Origin: an uncultured Bacteroidota bacterium
Lineage (GTDB): Bacteria > Bacteroidota > Bacteroidia > Bacteroidales > P3
Assembly (NCBI GenBank): GCA_902776365.1
Contig: CACYPU010000009.1
Location: forward strand, 1 to 64,000
Length of the DNA: 64,000 nucleotides
Direction: 5' to 3'
The notes under the pieces were generated by a model that searched no databases, was not told the origin of the DNA, and saw only the letters and a program-made list of their open reading frames with translations. Both the position numbers and the translations under genes were made by a program. This document shows positions 5,232 through 47,199 of the stretch, one piece after another. The stretch's first letter is position 1, and every line of letters begins with the position of its first letter.

Positions 5232-5888
5232 TTAATTCATAAACACATATCGGACGATATTGGAGCCCATACGGAGGGCCTTCTGGCGCGTGGCTTGCGA
5301 GTCGTTGTGCACATCCTGGTCTTCCCAGCCGTCACCGAGGTCGCACTCCCAGGTGAAGAAACAGACGAGACGACCCTCCCAGATGAGTCCATAGCCCTTA
5401 GGCGGCTTGTTGTCGTGCTCGTGGATTTTTGGCAAGCCGTTGGGAAACTGGTATTTCTGATGGTAGATGGGGTGCGAGAAGGGCAGCTCGACCCACTCGA
5501 GTTCGGGAAAGACCTTCTTCATCTGCGGCATGACGAAGTCCTTCAGGCCGTAGTTGTCGTCGATGTGCAGGAATCCGCCGCCGATGAGGTAGGTGCGAAG
5601 GTTCTGCGCCTCACGGTCGCTGAAGACCACGTTTCCGTGACCCGTCATGTGGACGAAGGGATAGTTGAAGAGTTCGGCGCTGCCGACATCGACGGTGGCG
5701 GGCTGCGGGTTGAGGCCCATCTGCTGGTCCTGGTTGCAGAAAGCGATAAGATTTTTTAAGGACGTGGGATTGGCGTACCAGTCGCCACCACCGCCGTATT
5801 TCAGTAATGCAATCTGCGGCTGGGCCTGCAAGGTGCAAGGTGAAAGGTGAAAGGTGAATAATATCAGTATGAGTAGCGTTTTTTTCAT
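5232..5888 (-). CDS. Exported DUF4159-domain protein
   Basis: A 218-residue protein with signal peptide MKKTLLILILFTF...LQAQ and then a DUF4159 domain: ALLKYGGGGDWYANPTSL, a glutamine-amidotransferase-like FVHMTGHGNVVFSD, GGGFLHIDDNYG, and FFTWECDLGDGWED. DUF4159 proteins are common in Bacteroidota and their function is not established. The start overlaps the rsmE stop by 4 bp (ATGA), so it is probably translationally coupled. Part of the signal peptide (FTFHLSPCTL) is encoded by a GGTGAAA-family repeat. Confidence 0.85.
   Translation of the reverse strand: MKKTLLILILFTFHLSPCTLQAQPQIALLKYGGGGDWYANPTSLKNLIAFCNQDQQMGLNPQPATVDVGSAELFNYPFVHMTGHGNVVFSDREAQNLRTYLIGGGFLHIDDNYGLKDFVMPQMKKVFPELEWVELPFSHPIYHQKYQFPNGLPKIHEHDNKPPKGYGLIWEGRLVCFFTWECDLGDGWEDQDVHNDSQATRQKALRMGSNIVRYVFMN
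5828..5860. repeat. GGTGAAA-family repeat in the DUF4159 signal peptide
   Basis: caaggtgcaaggtgaaaggt then gaaaggtgaata, period 7. On the minus strand it encodes FTFHLSPCTLQ. The same repeat words encode FTFHLSP in RsmE, MurC and the RpoN-M23 junction. Confidence 0.72.
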
Positions 5889-6601
5889 CGGTCGTTGATT
5901 AGGTTAAAAGCGGTGACGGCATAGAGGGCAGCTGTCTCGGTACGGAGGCGGCTGGGGCCCAGGCTCACGGGCTGGAAACCACACTCGAGGGCGAGGGCAA
6001 TCTCCTCCTCGGAGAAGTCGCCTTCTGGGCCTATGAGCACCACAGTATCCTGACCAGGCTGCAGGGCAGTGGCGAGGGGTGTGCGCGGCTTGTCGGCTTC
6101 ACAGTGGGCGATGAATTTCTGAGTGGGTAGTGGATAGTGGGTAGTGGATAGTAGGTCGCGGAGGGAGACGGCTGGGTGAATTTCGGGGAGGACGGTATGG
6201 AGACTCTGCTTCATGGCGCTGATGGCCAACTTCTCCAATCGGTCGGTCTTGAGGAACGAGCGTTCGGAGTGGTCACAGTCGAGGAGGGTAATCTCCCCCA
6301 CGCCTATCTCCACAGCCTTCTCCACGAGCCACTCCATGCGCGAAGGATTCTTGGTGGGCGCCACTGCGAGGTGAAAGGTGAAAGGTGAGAGGTGAGAGAT
6401 GAGAGGTGAGATAGATTGAATACTGCATGCTTTGTCGCTGGCTTCCACAATCTGGCAGGTATAGAGGTTTCCTTTTCCGTCGGTGACATTCAGTTCGTCG
6501 CCCTCGCGGAGGCGCAGCACCCGCACGGCGTGGCGGCTCTCCTCGGCATCGAGGGTGCAGAAAGCATTGGGGGTTATATCTTTACAATAAAACAGTTGCA
6601 T
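5885..6601 (-). CDS. rsmE: 16S rRNA (uracil1498-N3)-methyltransferase RsmE
   Basis: A 238-residue SPOUT methyltransferase that modifies m3U1498 in the decoding region of 16S rRNA using SAM. Seen: N-terminal PUA-like part (ESRHAVRVLRL), AVAPTKNPSRMEWLVEKAVEIGV, the knot motif VVLIGPEGDFSEEEI and LGPSRLRTETAALYA. Two stretches look foreign: about 64-77 (containing SHLSPFTFHL) and about 150-160 (LLSTTHYPLPT), each encoded by a different short repeat but kept in frame with the fold motifs intact. It starts 2 bp after mnmA and overlaps DUF4159 by 4 bp. Confidence 0.93.
   Translation of the reverse strand: MQLFYCKDITPNAFCTLDAEESRHAVRVLRLREGDELNVTDGKGNLYTCQIVEASDKACSIQSISPLISHLSPFTFHLAVAPTKNPSRMEWLVEKAVEIGVGEITLLDCDHSERSFLKTDRLEKLAISAMKQSLHTVLPEIHPAVSLRDLLSTTHYPLPTQKFIAHCEADKPRTPLATALQPGQDTVVLIGPEGDFSEEEIALALECGFQPVSLGPSRLRTETAALYAVTAFNLINDR
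6122..6155. repeat. GTAGTGGATAGTGG-family repeat inside rsmE
   Basis: agtgggtagtggatagtggg then tagtggatagta, period 7/14, in frame. It encodes LLSTTHYPLPT on the minus strand. The same words are in rsmH at 28111-28140. Confidence 0.72.
6368..6411. repeat. GGTGAAA/GGTGAGA repeat inside rsmE
   Basis: Six or so units of ggtgaaa, ggtgaga and gatgaga, period 7, in frame. It encodes the minus-strand segment around SHLSPFTFHL. Confidence 0.75.
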
Positions 6602-17190: not shown

Positions 17191-18615
17191 TTAGTTTAAA
17201 AGTTGGTCGCGTAGGGTTGTTTCGAGGCGTGGTACGAGGCGGTCGATGTCGCCGGCACCGAGGGTGAGGACTACATCGGGGCAGAGGGCGGGGACCAGCT
17301 CAAGGGTCTGGTCGGGAGTGCAGAGGTACTTGGACATGGTATCCATCTTGCGGAGCACCATGGAGGAGGTAACGCCGAGGATAGGCTTCTCCCGGGCGGG
17401 GTAGATGGGAAGCATAATGATTTCGTCGAGCGTCTGGAGGACACGGGCGAAATCGTCGGCGAGGTCGCGGGTGCGAGTGTAGAGATGGGGCTGGAAGATG
17501 CCCACGACACGCTTGCCTGGATAGAGGAAACGGACGGCCTCGATGGTCCTTTCAATTTCCTGAGGATGGTGAGCGTAGTCGTCAATGTAGATGAGTCCTT
17601 TCTCACGGATGCGGTAGTCGAAGCGACGGCGCACACCGGCAAAGGTCTTGAGGCCATGACGCAACTGAAACTGATCGAGGCCACAGGTGAGAGCCACAGC
17701 GGAGGCAGCGACGGCATTCTCAACATTGACGAGGGGAGCACCATCGAGTTCGAGGTCATAGAGCACCCCATCGGGGGTACGGAGGTCGAAGAAGAGGTTG
17801 CCGTTGTAGTTGCGGACATTGATGGCATAGTAGTCGGCTTCGATGCCACGGGCGGTATAGGTGAGAGGTGAGAGGTGAAAGGTGAAAGGTGAAATAGAAT
17901 CGTGATTGTGGTCTTCGTGGTGGTGTTCGTGGCCGTATTCAACAAATTCTTCGCCGTCAAGAGTTCGGAAGATGCCATTTTTGAGGAAGAGATGTCCGTC
18001 GGGCTGGGTCTGATTGGCAAACTGGAGGTAGGCCTCGAGCATGTGCTCGTGGGTGCCATAGATGTCAAGGTGATCGGGGTCGGTAGCAGTGATGACGGAG
18101 ATGTAGGGATAGAGCTGGAGGAAAGAGCGGTCGTACTCGTCGGCCTCGACAACAACATATTCGCTCTTGTTGTCGACAAGAAGATTGCTATCGAAGTTCT
18201 TGCTGATACCTCCGAGGAAGGCGCTGCATCCACAGGGGGCTTTGCTCAGCAGATGGGCAATCATAGTGGAAGTGGTAGTCTTTCCATGGCTGCCGGCGAC
18301 GGCGATGCACTTCTTACCGCGTGTGAGTTCGCCGAGCATCTGGGAACGTTTCTCCATACGGACGCCTCGGGTCTGAAGGGCTTGAAACTCGCGGGTATCG
18401 GTAGGCACCGCGGGGGTGTAGACCACGAGGTCCACATCGGCGGGGATGAGGTCGGGGTTATCGTCATAGTGGACGGCGATGCCTTCGGCCTCAAGCTCGG
18501 CGGTGAGGGGGCTGGGTGTGCGATCATAGCCGCTGACGGTGTCGCCGCGACGATGGAAGTAGCGTGCCAGCGCGCTCATGCCAATGCCTCCTATGCCCAA
18601 GAAGTAGTAGTTCAT
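17191..18615 (-). CDS. murC: UDP-N-acetylmuramate--L-alanine ligase MurC
   Basis: A 474-residue cytoplasmic enzyme that adds L-Ala to UDP-MurNAc. Rossmann start GIGGIGMSALARYFHRRG, ATP loop AGSHGKTTT (107-115), EADEYDRSF, TDPDHLDIYG and the C-terminal domain with YIDDYAHHPQEI and FQPHLYTRT are all present. Residues about 229-254 form an extra loop: a His-rich part (HEHHHEDHNHD) and a repeat-encoded part (ISPFTFHLSPLTYT), placed before ARGIEADYYA. Core motifs are intact, so the enzyme should work. Confidence 0.95.
   Translation of the reverse strand: MNYYFLGIGGIGMSALARYFHRRGDTVSGYDRTPSPLTAELEAEGIAVHYDDNPDLIPADVDLVVYTPAVPTDTREFQALQTRGVRMEKRSQMLGELTRGKKCIAVAGSHGKTTTSTMIAHLLSKAPCGCSAFLGGISKNFDSNLLVDNKSEYVVVEADEYDRSFLQLYPYISVITATDPDHLDIYGTHEHMLEAYLQFANQTQPDGHLFLKNGIFRTLDGEEFVEYGHEHHHEDHNHDSISPFTFHLSPLTYTARGIEADYYAINVRNYNGNLFFDLRTPDGVLYDLELDGAPLVNVENAVAASAVALTCGLDQFQLRHGLKTFAGVRRRFDYRIREKGLIYIDDYAHHPQEIERTIEAVRFLYPGKRVVGIFQPHLYTRTRDLADDFARVLQTLDEIIMLPIYPAREKPILGVTSSMVLRKMDTMSKYLCTPDQTLELVPALCPDVVLTLGAGDIDRLVPRLETTLRDQLLN
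17859..17895. repeat. GGTGAGA/GGTGAAA repeat inside murC
   Basis: aggtgagaggtgagaggtga then aaggtgaaaggtgaaat, period 7, in frame. It encodes ISPFTFHLSPLT in MurC. Confidence 0.75.
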
Positions 18616-42135: not shown

Positions 42136-44310
42136 ATGAAAATTCGCACCTTAGTTATCGCCCTTGCTATGTCGCTCATGGTGCCCAGCGCTGTGCGCGC
42201 CGACGAAGGCATGTGGCTTCTCTCGCTGATAGGCAAGAACTATCAGGACATGCAGCGTCAGGGATTCAAACTCACCCCTGAGGACATCTACAGCGTCAAC
42301 CAGTCCTGCCTCAAGGATGCCATCGTCGGCCTCGGTAATGCCGGCAGCCCCTTCTGGCACTTCTGCACGGGCGAGATTATCTCCTCCAAGGGTCTCGTCA
42401 GCACCAACCACCACTGCGGCTACGGCAAGCTCCAGGAGCACTCCACCGTCGAGCACGACTACCTCCGCGACGGTTTCTGGGCCTACTCCATGGATCAGGA
42501 ACTGCCCAACCCCGGCCTCACGGCCTCCATCCTCGTCCGCATGGAGGATGTCACCGACCGTGTGAAAGCCGTCATCAATGACGATATGAGCGAAGGCGAC
42601 CGCGCCACCGCCGTGGAGAAGATCTCTGCCAAGATTGCCGAAGAGGCTGTCAAGGGTACCGAATACGATGCCAAGGTCATCCCCATGTTCAACGACAACC
42701 AGTATTTCCTCTTCGTCCACATCATCTACAAGGATGTCCGCCTCGTCGGCGCTCCCCCTTCGTCGATGGGTAAATTCGGTGGCGACACCGACAACTGGTC
42801 CTGGCCCCGTCACACCTGCGATTTCTCCATGTTCCGCATCTATACCGCTCCCGACGGTAGCCCCGCCGACTACAGCAAGGACAACGTCCCCCTGAAACCC
42901 AAGCACCACCTCCCCGTCAGCGCCGGTGAAATCAACGATGGCGACTTCGCAATGGTCATGGGCTTCCCCGGCACCACCGACCACTTCCTGACCTCCTATG
43001 GCCTCGAGGAGACGATGAACATCACCAACAAGCTGCGCTATGAAATCCGCACCGTGAAGATCAACATCCTCCGCGAAGAGATGGCTGCCAGCCAGGCCAC
43101 CCGCATCAAATATGCCTCCAAGTATGCCTCCTGCTCGAACTACTGGAAATACAGCTACGAGCAGAACAAGGCCCTCAAGAACCTCAACACCATGGGCGTG
43201 AAGAAGCAGGTGGAGAAAGAATACATGGACTGGGCCCGCAAGCAGACGAACCCCAAGTATGCACGCGCCCTCGACCTCATCCAGAAAGGCTATGCTGCCC
43301 GTGCCGTCGCTGAAGAAGCCAACCAGTACCTCGTGGAAGGCCTCCTCACCGGTCCCGAACTGCTGCTGCAGGCGGTGCGCATCTACAACACCCTCGAAGC
43401 CGCAGAGAATCCCGAGTATGCCAACTACCGCGAGACCATCATCGAGAACATGAAGACCAAAGCCGCCGACTTCTACAAAGACTACAACGAGGAGACCGAG
43501 ATGCGCGTGATGGCCGGCCTCTTTGCCCACGTCTACAAGCACATGAACGAGCAATACATGCCCGAATTCCTCATCAAGGCTGGCAAGAAGAAAGACGGCG
43601 ACTTCACCAAATATGTCAAGGATATGTTCGAAGAGTCCATCTTCGCCAACGAAGAGAGATTCATGAAATTCATGGAGAAGCCCTCGCTGAAGAAACTGGC
43701 CAAAGATCCCATCTACAAGGCTGGCAAGGAGACCTTCGAGAAATATCAGGAGGTGAACAGCATCGTCCCGCAGGAAGACCAGGAGAACCTTGAGCGCGGC
43801 ATCCGCGACTTCACCGACGGTATCCTGCAGATCAACAACGGCAAGAAACTGATGTCGCCCGACGCCAACTCGACCATCCGTCTCACCTACGGCAACGTGA
43901 TGAGCTACGACCCCCGCGACGGTGTCTCCTACCACTACTACACCACCATGAAGGGCGTCATCGAGAAGGAAGACCCCGACAACGCCGAATTCAACGTCCC
44001 CACCCGTCTGAAAGAGCTCTATGCCAAGAAAGAGTTCGGCAACTATGCCAACCGTCGCGGTGAACTGCCCACCTGCTTCATCACCAACAATGATATCACT
44101 GGTGGCAACTCTGGTTCGCCCGTCATCAACGCCAACGGCGTACTCATCGGCTTGGCCTTCGACGGCAACAGTGAGGCTATGAGCGGTGACATCGACTTCG
44201 AAGAGAACCTCCAGCGTTGCATCTGCCTCGATAGCCGCTACATGCTGTGGGTCATTGACATCTACGCCGGTGCCAAGAACCTCATCGCCGAAATGGACAT
44301 TGTTAGATAA
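42136..44310 (+). CDS. S46-family dipeptidyl-peptidase (DPP7-like)
   Basis: A 724-residue secreted serine exopeptidase that removes dipeptides from peptide N-termini in the periplasm. Signal peptide ends near VRA (residue 22). Chymotrypsin-like catalytic sites: TNHHCGYG (His 92/93) and TGGNSGSPVIN (Ser 659). Eighteen residues after the serine lies Gly 677 (AFDGNSEA); in characterised S46 enzymes Gly here goes with DPP7-type broad hydrophobic specificity and Arg with DPP11-type acidic specificity, so I infer DPP7-like. Normal length. A single gene; a repeat follows before rpoN. Confidence 0.92.
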   Translation: MKIRTLVIALAMSLMVPSAVRADEGMWLLSLIGKNYQDMQRQGFKLTPEDIYSVNQSCLKDAIVGLGNAGSPFWHFCTGEIISSKGLVSTNHHCGYGKLQEHSTVEHDYLRDGFWAYSMDQELPNPGLTASILVRMEDVTDRVKAVINDDMSEGDRATAVEKISAKIAEEAVKGTEYDAKVIPMFNDNQYFLFVHIIYKDVRLVGAPPSSMGKFGGDTDNWSWPRHTCDFSMFRIYTAPDGSPADYSKDNVPLKPKHHLPVSAGEINDGDFAMVMGFPGTTDHFLTSYGLEETMNITNKLRYEIRTVKINILREEMAASQATRIKYASKYASCSNYWKYSYEQNKALKNLNTMGVKKQVEKEYMDWARKQTNPKYARALDLIQKGYAARAVAEEANQYLVEGLLTGPELLLQAVRIYNTLEAAENPEYANYRETIIENMKTKAADFYKDYNEETEMRVMAGLFAHVYKHMNEQYMPEFLIKAGKKKDGDFTKYVKDMFEESIFANEERFMKFMEKPSLKKLAKDPIYKAGKETFEKYQEVNSIVPQEDQENLERGIRDFTDGILQINNGKKLMSPDANSTIRLTYGNVMSYDPRDGVSYHYYTTMKGVIEKEDPDNAEFNVPTRLKELYAKKEFGNYANRRGELPTCFITNNDITGGNSGSPVINANGVLIGLAFDGNSEAMSGDIDFEENLQRCICLDSRYMLWVIDIYAGAKNLIAEMDIVR

Positions 44311-44365
44311 CGGTTAACGGTTAAAGGTTAACGGTTAACGATTAATATTAAACGTTAAACGTTAC
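44310..44365. repeat. GGTTAACGGTTAAAGG / TTAAACG repeat before the rpoN fusion
   Basis: cggttaacggttaaaggtta, acggttaacgattaatatta, aacgttaaacgttac: period 7-8. It starts in the S46 stop codon region and ends 4 bp before the GTG start of rpoN. Confidence 0.75.
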
Positions 44366-44368
44366 AAA

Positions 44369-46699
44369 GTGAAACAAATTCAGCGACAGCAACTGCAGCA
44401 GAAACTCTCACCGCAACAGATTCAACTGATGCGGCTGCTGCAGTTGCCGGTCACTGAATTGGAGCAAGCCATCAAAGAAGAAATTGAGAAAAACCCTCTT
44501 CTCGATTCCACCGCTCCCGAGAACGAGCAAAGCATCGACACCTTAAACTCCGCGGAAAACAACAGCTCCGACTGGGACAGCGACGACGAGGATTTCGGGT
44601 ACGACTACCACGAACATCTGGACAGCGACCCCAACGCCACACGCCGCGAATTCATCATTTCTGATACTCCATCCTTCTCCGACCGCCTCAACGACCAGCT
44701 CATCTCCCGCCACCTCACCGACCGGCAACGTCTCATCGCCAACGAACTCATCGGTACCCTCGACGATGCCGGCTATCTTAGCCGCGACCTTGACCTCGTC
44801 ACCAACGACCTCGCCTTCCGTCAAGGCATCGACGCCACGCCCGAGGAAGTCCTCGAAGTGCTCCACATCATCCAGAGCCTCGAACCCGCCGGCATCGGTG
44901 CCCGCAACCTGCAGGAATGCCTCCTGTTGCAGCTGGAGAGGAACTCGGAATCCGGAATTGAGAATCCGGAATTAACGATTGCAAAAGCGATTGTCAAAGA
45001 CCATTTCGACGACTTCGCCAATCACCGCTACGAACGCATCTGCGCAGCCCTCGGCATCAGCCAGAAGCAACTCGACGGAGCCATTTCACTCATCCGCCAC
45101 CTCAACCCCAAGCCTGGCAGCTCCGAGGCCGAAAGCCAGCTCACCACGGCGGTCTTCACCCCCGACATCATCCTCCAGCAACACGACGGGGAACTCCTCT
45201 TCTACCTCAACGACGGCAACCTTCCACGCCTCTCTCTCAACACCTACTATACCGACATGCTTGCCGAGATGGAGAAGCAAAAGAAAGACCGTCCCTCCCC
45301 TGGCGACCGTGAGACGATGCAATTCCTGCGCACCAAACAAGCCGACGCACAAGGGTTCATTGACCTGCTCCAGCAGCGCCACGACACCATTGTCCGCGTG
45401 ATGCGCTACATCGTCAAACACCAGCGCCAGTTCCTCCTCACCGGTGACCCCGACCTCATGCAACCTCTGCGCCAACGGGAAGTGGCCGACGCCACAGGGC
45501 TCGACATATCCACCATCTCGCGCATGGCCAACAGCAAATATCTGCAAACCGATTTCGGGACCATCCCTCTCAAAGACTGCTTCTCGAAAGGCTTCTCAAA
45601 CGAAGATGGCGAAGAGGTGTCTGTCGAGACCATCAAACAGCGTCTCTCCGACGCCATCAACAATGAAGACAAACACTCGCCGCTCTCCGACGACGCACTC
45701 ACCAAACTCCTCAACAGCCAAGGATTCCCGCTGGCTCGCCGCACAGTGGCGAAATACCGCGAACAACTGGGATTCCCCATTGCCCGTCTCCGCCGCATTC
45801 TGGTGCTTCTATTACTCTTGCTCTCACCTCTCACCTTTCATCTCTCACCTCTTTCTGCACAATCCTCCTACTACGACTCGCTCATCGCCATCCGTCTCGA
45901 AGCTGCGCAGAGACAAAATCAGCAGCAGGCAAGAAATGCCCAGAGGAATGCCGCTCCAGCGAACAAAAAGCAGCAGAGAGCCCAAAGACGTCCTGTCGAC
46001 ACCTCCGAAGTACAAACCCCGAACACCGAGCTCACCGCTCCCATGGTGCCCTTATGGTACACCTCCTTCCCACACAACCGCGTCAATCCCATGGGGCGCA
46101 CACGCATCGACATGATGCCCGACGAAATCATCCTCAAACTCGTCAACGACAGCAGCGATTTCTGCTTCCCCATCAAACACCCTAAAACCTCCAACTATGG
46201 ATGGCGCTGGGAACGCGGCCACCAAGGCGTCGATATCGGACTCACCGTAGGTGAACCTATCCATTGTGCCTTCAGCGGCATCGTCCGCGTGGCCACAACT
46301 ATGGGTGGCTATGGCAACTGCATCGTCGTCCGCCACCCCAACGGCCTGGAAACCCTCTATGGCCACCTCTCCAAAATCAATGTCAAAGCCAACCAACAAG
46401 TCGAGGCCGGCGAAGTGATTGGTCTCGGCGGCAACACCGGCAACTCCACCGGTCCCCACCTCCACTTCGAATGCCGTTTCCTCTATCAGGCCTTCGATCC
46501 CGAATGGATTCTCGACTTCTCGAACTACAGTCTCCGCACCCGTCGGCTACATCTCGACAAAAGCTATTTCGGAATCCATCAGCCACGTAAAGGGCAAAAC
46601 CTCGAATACAAAGCCGACAACAGCATTATCAAAGAACAAAAAAACAAGAGAAAGCGGAACACCGCCACCGCTCCTGTTTTCGATATAAATGACTTTTAG
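44369..46699 (+). CDS. rpoN: RNA polymerase sigma-54 factor (RpoN) fused in frame to an M23 metallopeptidase
   Basis: One 776-codon frame from a GTG. Residues 1-476 are a complete sigma-54: Gln-rich region I ([15 protein letters not shown]), core-binding and HTH domains, and the RpoN box [10 protein letters not shown] at 456-465. Then, with no stop, come LVLLLLL and [13 protein letters not shown] (477-498), which look exactly like a signal peptide core and cleavage site, partly encoded by a CTCACCTTTCA repeat. A linker and a LytM/M23 domain follow: HQGVD (His 618, Asp 622) and HLHFE (His 697, His 699). M23 enzymes cut peptidoglycan peptides. Either a true fusion or overlapping in-frame translation of two products from an internal start. 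Confidence 0.88.
44941..44976. repeat. GGAATCCGGAATTGAGAATCC repeat-like stretch inside rpoN
   Basis: gaactcggaatccggaattg then agaatccggaattaac, in frame, encoding [12 protein letters not shown] between two helices of the sigma-54 core-binding domain. Similar words are in rsmH at 27788. Confidence 0.6.
45821..45855. repeat. CTCACCT/TTCACCT-type repeat at the RpoN-M23 junction
   Basis: ctctcacctctcacctttca then tctctcacctctttct, period 7, in frame. It encodes [12 protein letters not shown]. Same family as the repeats in rsmE, murC and the DUF4159 signal peptide. Confidence 0.75.
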
Positions 46700-46713: not shown

Positions 46714-47199
46714 ATGAAAAAAACCAATCTCTCCTCCTATGACCACGCCTCAGTCCCCGATGGCAGCGCATACCGCATTGGCATCATTGCGGCAGAATGG
46801 AATGCCGAAGTCACCGACGTCCTCCTCCAAGGGGCCATCGACACACTCCTCGAACACGGCGTCAAAGAGGAAAACCTCATAGTGCGGCGTGTCCCCGGCA
46901 CCTTTGAACTCTCGTCGGCTGCCGACATCATGCTCGATTCCCAATATCCCGATGCCGTCATCTGCATCGGCTGCGTCATCCAGGGCGAGACCCGTCACTT
47001 TGAGTTTATCTGCCAGGCCGTCTCTCAGGGCATCACGAATGTGGCCATCAAACATGAATGCCCCGTCATCTTCAGCGTCCTCACCACCGACACTATGGAG
47101 CAAGCCCTCGACCGCGCCGGTGGCAAGCATGGTAACAAAGGTGTCGAAGGCGCCGTCACGGCCCTCAAGATGCTCGCCTTCAAGGAATCCGTCGCCTAA
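46714..47199 (+). CDS. ribH: 6,7-dimethyl-8-ribityllumazine synthase
   Basis: A 161-residue enzyme of riboflavin synthesis joining the pyrimidine amine and dihydroxybutanone phosphate. Seen: [20 protein letters not shown] (23-42), [38 protein letters not shown] (with the His-Phe-Glu), [20 protein letters not shown] and [19 protein letters not shown]. Full length. It lies 14 bp after the rpoN fusion and 21 bp before fmt. Confidence 0.95.

Follow-up and report, generated by a model that had tools for sequence, protein, structure and literature searches.

The gene for sigma-54 (rpoN) and a gene for a secreted peptidase of the M23 family form a single uninterrupted reading frame in the window, that is, the whole stretch of 64,000 nucleotides of DNA analysed here, and in most of the inspected relatives of this bacterium that belong to the same genus. 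From the sequence of the region that joins the two halves, we consider it somewhat more probable than an even chance that the product is a polyprotein that enters the inner membrane and is cleaved behind A497, so that the peptidase is secreted and sigma-54 keeps a tail embedded in the membrane, from which it may be freed at a later stage.

The fused reading frame and its domains

The features of the locus, all on the plus strand, are as follows.

42136..44310: upstream neighbour, an open reading frame of 724 aa whose product, by our own judgement, resembles an S46 dipeptidyl-peptidase
44369..46699: fused rpoN-M23 reading frame, coding for 776 aa and closed by a stop; 84 of the 115 congeneric genomes inspected share this architecture
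44369..45796: sigma-54 (RpoN) module, aa 1-476, with activator-interacting, core-binding and DNA-binding domains (Pfam PF00309, PF04963, PF04552)
45734..45763: RpoN box, aa 456-465, with the motif ARRTVAKYR
45785..45796: RLRR, aa 473-476, end of sigma-54; R473, L474 and R475 invariant in 22 of 22 aligned proteins
45797..45859: hydrophobic core and c-region of the putative internal signal peptide, aa 477-497, from hydrophobicity and spacing
45803..45805: GTG codon 479, candidate internal start; 8 of 85 fused genomes have GTG at this position (+3)
45821..45852: CTCACCT/CTCTCAC heptamer repeat coding part of the putative signal peptide
45860..45862: Q498, proposed new N-terminus after a signal peptidase I cut at A497^Q498; Q invariant in 22 of 22 aligned proteins, A^Q in 82 of 85 by rule
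46217..46501: peptidase M23 domain, aa 617-711 (Pfam PF01551), with H618, D622, H666 and H699 present
46714..47199: downstream neighbour, an open reading frame of 161 aa whose product we take to resemble the lumazine synthase RibH

The fused frame starts with GTG, ends with TAG and contains no internal stop, and the calculated mass of its product is 88.2 kDa. Four Pfam domains exceed their curated cut-offs: Sigma54_AID (2-46), Sigma54_CBD (96-294), Sigma54_DBD (318-476) and Peptidase_M23 (617-711). The sigma-54 domains were detected in all 22 of the aligned fused members (E 0.001); where a sigma-54 would be expected to reach its C-terminus shortly after the RpoN box, the frame instead continues into the M23 half without a stop. 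In that half, the HxxxD (H618/D622) and HxH (H697/H699) motifs and H666 are invariant in the 22 aligned fused proteins, and we assume H618, D622, H666 and H699 to be the catalytic residues. By its domain and residues, the M23 half is a member of the peptidase M23 family, for which peptidoglycan hydrolysis is predicted. The preliminary description of this DNA had already reported rpoN in frame with an M23 gene and no stop between them, a sigma-54 complete through a box at residues 456-465, and intact HxxxD and HxH motifs, all of which our analysis bears out; its estimate of a product of about 87 kDa was close to the calculated mass, and its deduction that translation of rpoN carries on into the peptidase is supported by the stop-free frame.

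LysM domains, which usually bind the cell wall, occur in 5 of the 22 aligned fused members and are absent from the window protein, while some fused relatives (L019, L020, L022-L026) reach beyond the M23 domain at the C-terminus. AlphaFold2, run on three sequences, gave a mean pLDDT of 40 and an unusable model. The genome from which the window derives (18 contigs, 89.65% complete) has a single rpoN.

Occurrence of the fusion among related genomes

A total of 120 congeneric genomes, including that of the window, were searched; rpoN was present in 116, and the sequence was inspected in 115 of these, the one left uninspected (G069) having a listed open frame of 801 aa. The one-frame fusion was found in 84 of the 115 and the other 31 are unfused, two of them being incomplete at rpoN (G123, where it lies near the contig start, and G111, where it is in two frames). 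Another 63 rpoN-bearing genomes belong to other genera of the family; their listed open frames are of 192-638 aa except for one, G196, whose frame of 836 aa spans both the sigma-54 and M23 halves. Among the 31 of these 63 genomes that were read at the sequence level, G196 is fused and 30 are unfused. The 85 fused genomes referred to below are the 84 congeners and G196.

A survey at the order level, comprising 393 genomes, of which 373 had a match at 1e-60, showed that among the matches listed only the window genome crosses both halves stop-free; G157 crosses them with one TAA, and its sigma-54 frame alone is of 450 aa. A scan of contigs gave at least 80 loci; among those listed, two (L040 and L041) match over nearly the full length, and they add no independent species since their match coordinates equal those of G002 and G008. 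No title on a sigma-54/peptidase fusion was found in a literature search that took in few subscription journals.

The preliminary description had left room for this assembly alone being fused, and only draft assemblies, as the relatives' genomes appear to be from their contig counts, are available to judge by. The same frame nevertheless occurs in 85 genomes with differing junction sequences, and an error of assembly or sequencing, which we regard as exceedingly improbable, was rejected given that 84 of the 115 inspected congeners are fused. The fusion is thus confirmed as real and not the error of a single assembly.

The junction as a putative internal signal peptide

In all 85 fused proteins, a hydrophobic run directly follows the basic end of sigma-54, and the best mean Kyte-Doolittle value over 10 residues ranges from 2.2 to 3.7. 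To locate the cleavage site, we took the first AQ lying 13 or more residues beyond the basic end, or GQ or SQ where there was no AQ; by this rule the site is AQ in 82 proteins, GQ in 2 and SQ in 1, and the distance from the basic end to the Q is 14-29 residues, with a median of 17. A simpler rule that takes the first Q gives AQ in 75 of 85, and the alignment of 22 proteins, which was made without any choice of site, has Q498 in every member and A497 in at least 90%. The uncharged run at the junction has a median of 14 residues.

According to the excerpt of PMC5837995, most signal peptidase I substrates of Bacteroidetes expose Gln after cleavage. By its sequence, the junction fits such a Q-rule substrate of the Bacteroidota, with a basic n-region, a hydrophobic core and a small residue followed by Gln, and RLRR would thus serve a further role as the n-region of an internal signal peptide; the case is built on hydrophobicity, length and A^Q. 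Like the substrates in that excerpt (PMC5837995), the fused protein would be cleaved before Gln; unlike them, it carries its signal peptide internally, with about 470 residues of cytosolic protein ahead of it. That position holds for the sole product that is certain from the sequence, and an internal start could make the signal peptide N-terminal. The window genome has signal peptidase I genes in two frames and one frame for an M50 (RseP-like) protease.

The signal-peptide core that the preliminary description had placed at the junction is therefore upheld by the hydrophobic run and the A^Q across the 85 fused proteins. One of its two alternatives, that sigma-54 stays tethered to an attached hydrolase, fares less well: with a median distance of 17 residues from the basic end to the Q, and with A^Q in 82 of 85, the junction resembles a signal peptide that is cut off more than it does a permanent anchor, and processing into two proteins appears more likely.

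Selection on the two halves

The dN/dS values, pooled over 13 close pairs, are 0.096 for sigma-54, 0.40 for the signal-peptide stretch (234 codon pairs, with one species pair above 1), 0.19 for the linker and 0.057 for M23. Both halves are under strong purifying selection. The synonymous rate is 0.65 at the signal peptide against 0.60 in rpoN, so that in these 13 pairs the signal peptide shows no drop in synonymous rate of the kind that a hidden signal would leave.

Evolutionary history

In 27 of the 31 unfused congeners, the M23 frame begins no more than 100 nt from the rpoN end or overlaps it, being in the same frame as rpoN in 10 and in a different frame in 17; in six of the 27, an ATG or GTG overlaps the rpoN stop by 4 nt. 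These adjoining or overlapping genes likely represent the precursor arrangement. Two unfused congeners, G060 and G092, keep an open reading frame between rpoN and M23, and two others, G013 and G061, have no M23 within 1.5 kb downstream of rpoN, where the next gene presumably corresponds to ribH. As a separate observation, several M23 genes that stand apart beside rpoN in unfused congeners (L167, L185, L227, L236 and L239) have no ATG before the hydrophobic core, and their open frames offer just TTG or no usual start.

In the other genera, 18 of the 30 unfused genomes have an M23 frame that begins 578-989 nt past rpoN and one (G183) has it at the rpoN stop; in the remaining 11, no M23 was found in the stretch of sequence read. 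A hydrophobic open reading frame of about 200-215 aa lies between rpoN and M23 in five of five such genomes examined closely.

The rpoN tree (145 rows, FastTree) places the 84 fused congeners in one clade with a support of 97; 84 of its 88 members are fused, and the unfused G094, G123, G013 and G061 lie within it. G196 sits among the unfused members of its own genus, and the tree implies 5 changes in total. The tree of M23 (127 rows, from the genomes in which an M23 was found) partly disagrees: 82 fused genomes form one clade with a support of 85, G011 and G062 group with an unfused genome, G094 and G123 fall outside the fused clade, and 3 changes are implied. As judged from these trees, the fusion arose at least once in the genus, where it may have arisen a second time, plus once, apparently independently, in G196, with apparent reversals in G094 and G123 and apparent losses of M23 in G013 and G061. 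Since 31 of the 115 congeners are unfused, 4 of them inside the fused clade of the rpoN tree, the fusion is not indispensable.

A proposed membrane stage for sigma-54

The uninterrupted frame, the complete domains on both sides, the selection on both and the conserved A^Q after the hydrophobic run are present in the sequences themselves, and it is from them that we infer the tethering, cleavage and regulation of sigma-54. In the mechanism that we favour, an ancestral rpoN and an adjoining gene for a secreted M23 peptidoglycan peptidase would have become one gene, whose product would be a polyprotein made of a complete sigma-54, an internal signal peptide with RLRR as n-region, and the peptidase. 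On leaving the ribosome, the hydrophobic run would go to the Sec translocon while sigma-54 remains in the cytoplasm; signal peptidase I would then cut after A497, and the exported peptidase would be an enzyme of about 32 kDa in the periplasm, with Gln as its first residue. The sigma-54 of about 56 kDa would stay in the inner membrane by a short tail and might either work there or be set free by an RseP-like intramembrane protease.

If the sole copy of sigma-54 is obligately translated into a secreted enzyme, a membrane stage would be added to the life of sigma-54: through the fusion, a gene regulator would end up at the membrane, and what becomes of it there could be tested directly. A further step, which we put forward tentatively and hold to be rather unlikely, is that sigma-54 is here membrane-born, being delivered to the inner membrane one to one with a wall hydrolase, and that its release, first by signal peptidase I and next by an intramembrane protease, hinges on Sec export or the state of the envelope, which would tie sigma-54 output to envelope synthesis. 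The junction suggests, too, that the extreme end of a DNA-binding domain can supply the material for an internal signal peptide, and the fused, overlapping and separated versions within one genus amount to a natural experiment.

Alternative explanations

According to the main rival reading, most of the M23 peptidase could instead be made, with an N-terminal signal peptide, from a second in-frame start within the end of rpoN, the fused product being a tolerated by-product that is cut or degraded; we judge this unlikely, if deserving of serious attention. The preliminary description had proposed the GTG at codon 479 for this role, and the codon is indeed GTG, yet its counterpart (+3) is GTG in just 8 of 85 fused genomes. 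Another candidate is a GTG five codons before the RLRR end, present in 47 of 85, which would give M-ARLRR followed by the hydrophobic run; it accounts for 47 of the 66 valines at that position in fused genomes (background 0.51), and for 9 of 24 in the unfused congeners (background 0.41). GTG and TTG codons from -12 to +5 number 130 against a synonymous expectation of 98.1 (sd 7.5), genomes lacking any start in that interval are fewer than expected (3 against 9.5), and the excess reaches a z of 7.9 in intervals moved somewhat upstream, all these statistics being drawn from related genomes that are not independent. On the other side, no position is universal among the 85 fused genomes, by which a universally conserved internal start was rejected, and the window genome itself has ATT, not GTG, at -5. 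There is no ATG, GTG or TTG from -12 to +5 in 3 of the 85 and none from the RpoN box to the cleavage site in G020, and ATG is absent between the box and the cleavage site in 25 of 82. The GTG for the valine of RRTV is over-used in unfused congeners too (19 of 29, background 0.41), and intervals of rpoN about 100 codons upstream are also in excess (z up to 4.8). Because a start in the same frame would equally leave rpoN stop-free, the open frame alone is compatible with it; rpoN would then still be read through, with no stop between, and a fused nascent chain is expected with or without an internal start.

The two halves might, rather than being separated, stay together as one stable protein held by an uncleaved signal anchor, with sigma-54 inside and the wall hydrolase outside as a direct sensor from wall to transcription. 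Catalytic residues intact on both sides of one polypeptide, and LysM in 5 of 22 aligned members, agree with such a protein, which we nonetheless find improbable: a median of 17 residues from the basic end to the Q, with an uncharged run of 14, is short for an anchor, and the A^Q signature is conserved amid surroundings that vary. Cleavage is shared with our preferred polyprotein by another proposal, which differs from it just on function and which we regard as quite improbable, namely that a stop was lost by neutral accident between adjoining genes and did no harm, processing restoring two proteins with no regulatory role. The frequency of the unfused precursor arrangement in the genus (27 of 31 with M23 within 100 nt), the apparent reversals in G094 and G123 and the M23 losses in G013 and G061 would be in keeping with an accident; that 84 of the 88 genomes in the rpoN-tree clade have retained the fusion, and that it apparently arose again in G196, argues against one.

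A programmed frameshift that would end sigma-54 at the junction was rejected as well, the +1 frame having a nearby stop in 49 of the 85 fused genomes against 50.2 expected from amino acids and codon use. In the +2 frame, the same 85 genomes have a nearby stop in 3 against 4.9 expected, and slippery heptamers in register occur at 3 of the 85 junctions, an upstream control giving 2 of 85.

Comparison with known systems

The closest precedents in their working are the extracytoplasmic function (ECF) sigma factors IutY and ECF52 and pro-sigma-K, to which the hepatitis C virus core-E1 may be added as an analogy. In Bradyrhizobium, the single gene fbcH gives cytochrome b and cytochrome c1 by cleavage at an internal signal sequence; both products belong to one respiratory complex, unlike sigma-54 and an M23 peptidase.

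In the excerpts of PMC8999054 and PMC5826349, IutY of Pseudomonas putida and ECF52 members such as SCO4117 of Streptomyces carry C-terminal membrane and outer domains, and Prc and RseP set IutY free (PMC8999054). They share with the fusion a sigma domain, a membrane-type segment and an extracytoplasmic domain in one frame; as presented in those excerpts, however, they join an ECF sigma factor to anti-sigma or carbohydrate-binding parts, whereas here a sigma-54 is joined to a peptidase through a junction of the signal-peptidase type. Pro-sigma-K of Bacillus subtilis is held at the membrane until the S2P protease SpoIVFB frees it (excerpts of PMC10202637 and PMC11486902). If the membrane stage that we propose from sequence holds, the two cases would have in common a sigma factor kept at the membrane; pro-sigma-K differs in having an N-terminal pro-sequence and no secreted partner and in being specific to sporulation. 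In hepatitis C virus core-E1, as outlined in the excerpt of PMC5402940, the C-terminus of a cytosolic protein is the signal peptide of the next one, signal peptidase cuts, and signal-peptide peptidase releases the first protein. The likeness is one of mechanism only, the system in that excerpt being viral and of the eukaryotic ER, and no sequence relation is claimed.

Sigma-54 function in the genus

Sigma-54 is usually seen as a soluble factor controlled through its activators; it is unrelated in sequence to the ECF sigma factors and needs an AAA+ activator. Such an activator was found in 109 of 119 congeneric genomes and in 61 of the 62 good ones, and that of the window genome, of the AAA+ type, has the GAFTGA motif. 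In nine congeneric genomes, the pattern TGGCAC-N5-TTGCW, used to scan for -24/-12 promoters of sigma-54, occurs about twice as often as a reversed-pattern control (52 against 23), a modest excess in which no clear wall regulon was seen; the window genome has 9 sites, 5 of them within open frames of at least 281 codons. One -24/-12-like site, TGGCACGGAATTTGCT, lies 30 nt before an open reading frame (L327, G000:C1, near 340635) and marks a candidate sigma-54 target, which we take to be similar to thioredoxin.

In a subclade formed by G061, G103, G066 and G064 (L221, L219, L223 and L225), Asn or Ser replaces the usual Lys before the YR of the RpoN box, which is unusual in a motif for DNA recognition; three of these relatives (G064, G066 and G103) are fused.

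Heptamer repeats

Heptamers of the CTCACCT type are in excess in the window, with 13 matches at up to one mismatch against 0.31 expected. By the same count, the heptamer of the junction is also found in the junction of G002 and in no other fused genome. The preliminary description had noted that this repeat recurs inside other genes, and we located CTCACCT/TTCACCT repeats in three reading frames of the minus strand (5232-5888, 5885-6601 and 17191-18615), where they code SPFTFHLSP-like peptides. By eye, the frame at 5885-6601 would seem to resemble RsmE and that at 17191-18615 MurC.

5839-5858, minus strand: CTCACCT/TTCACCT repeat inside a reading frame
6370-6410, minus strand: CTCACCT/TTCACCT repeat inside a reading frame
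17860-17893, minus strand: CTCACCT/TTCACCT repeat inside a reading frame

Many other short arrays of 7-8 nt units, differing in sequence, are spread across the window (for example at 1413-1513), and an array of the heptamer TAACGGT at 44308-44375 lies directly 5' of the rpoN start, between rpoN and the upstream gene.
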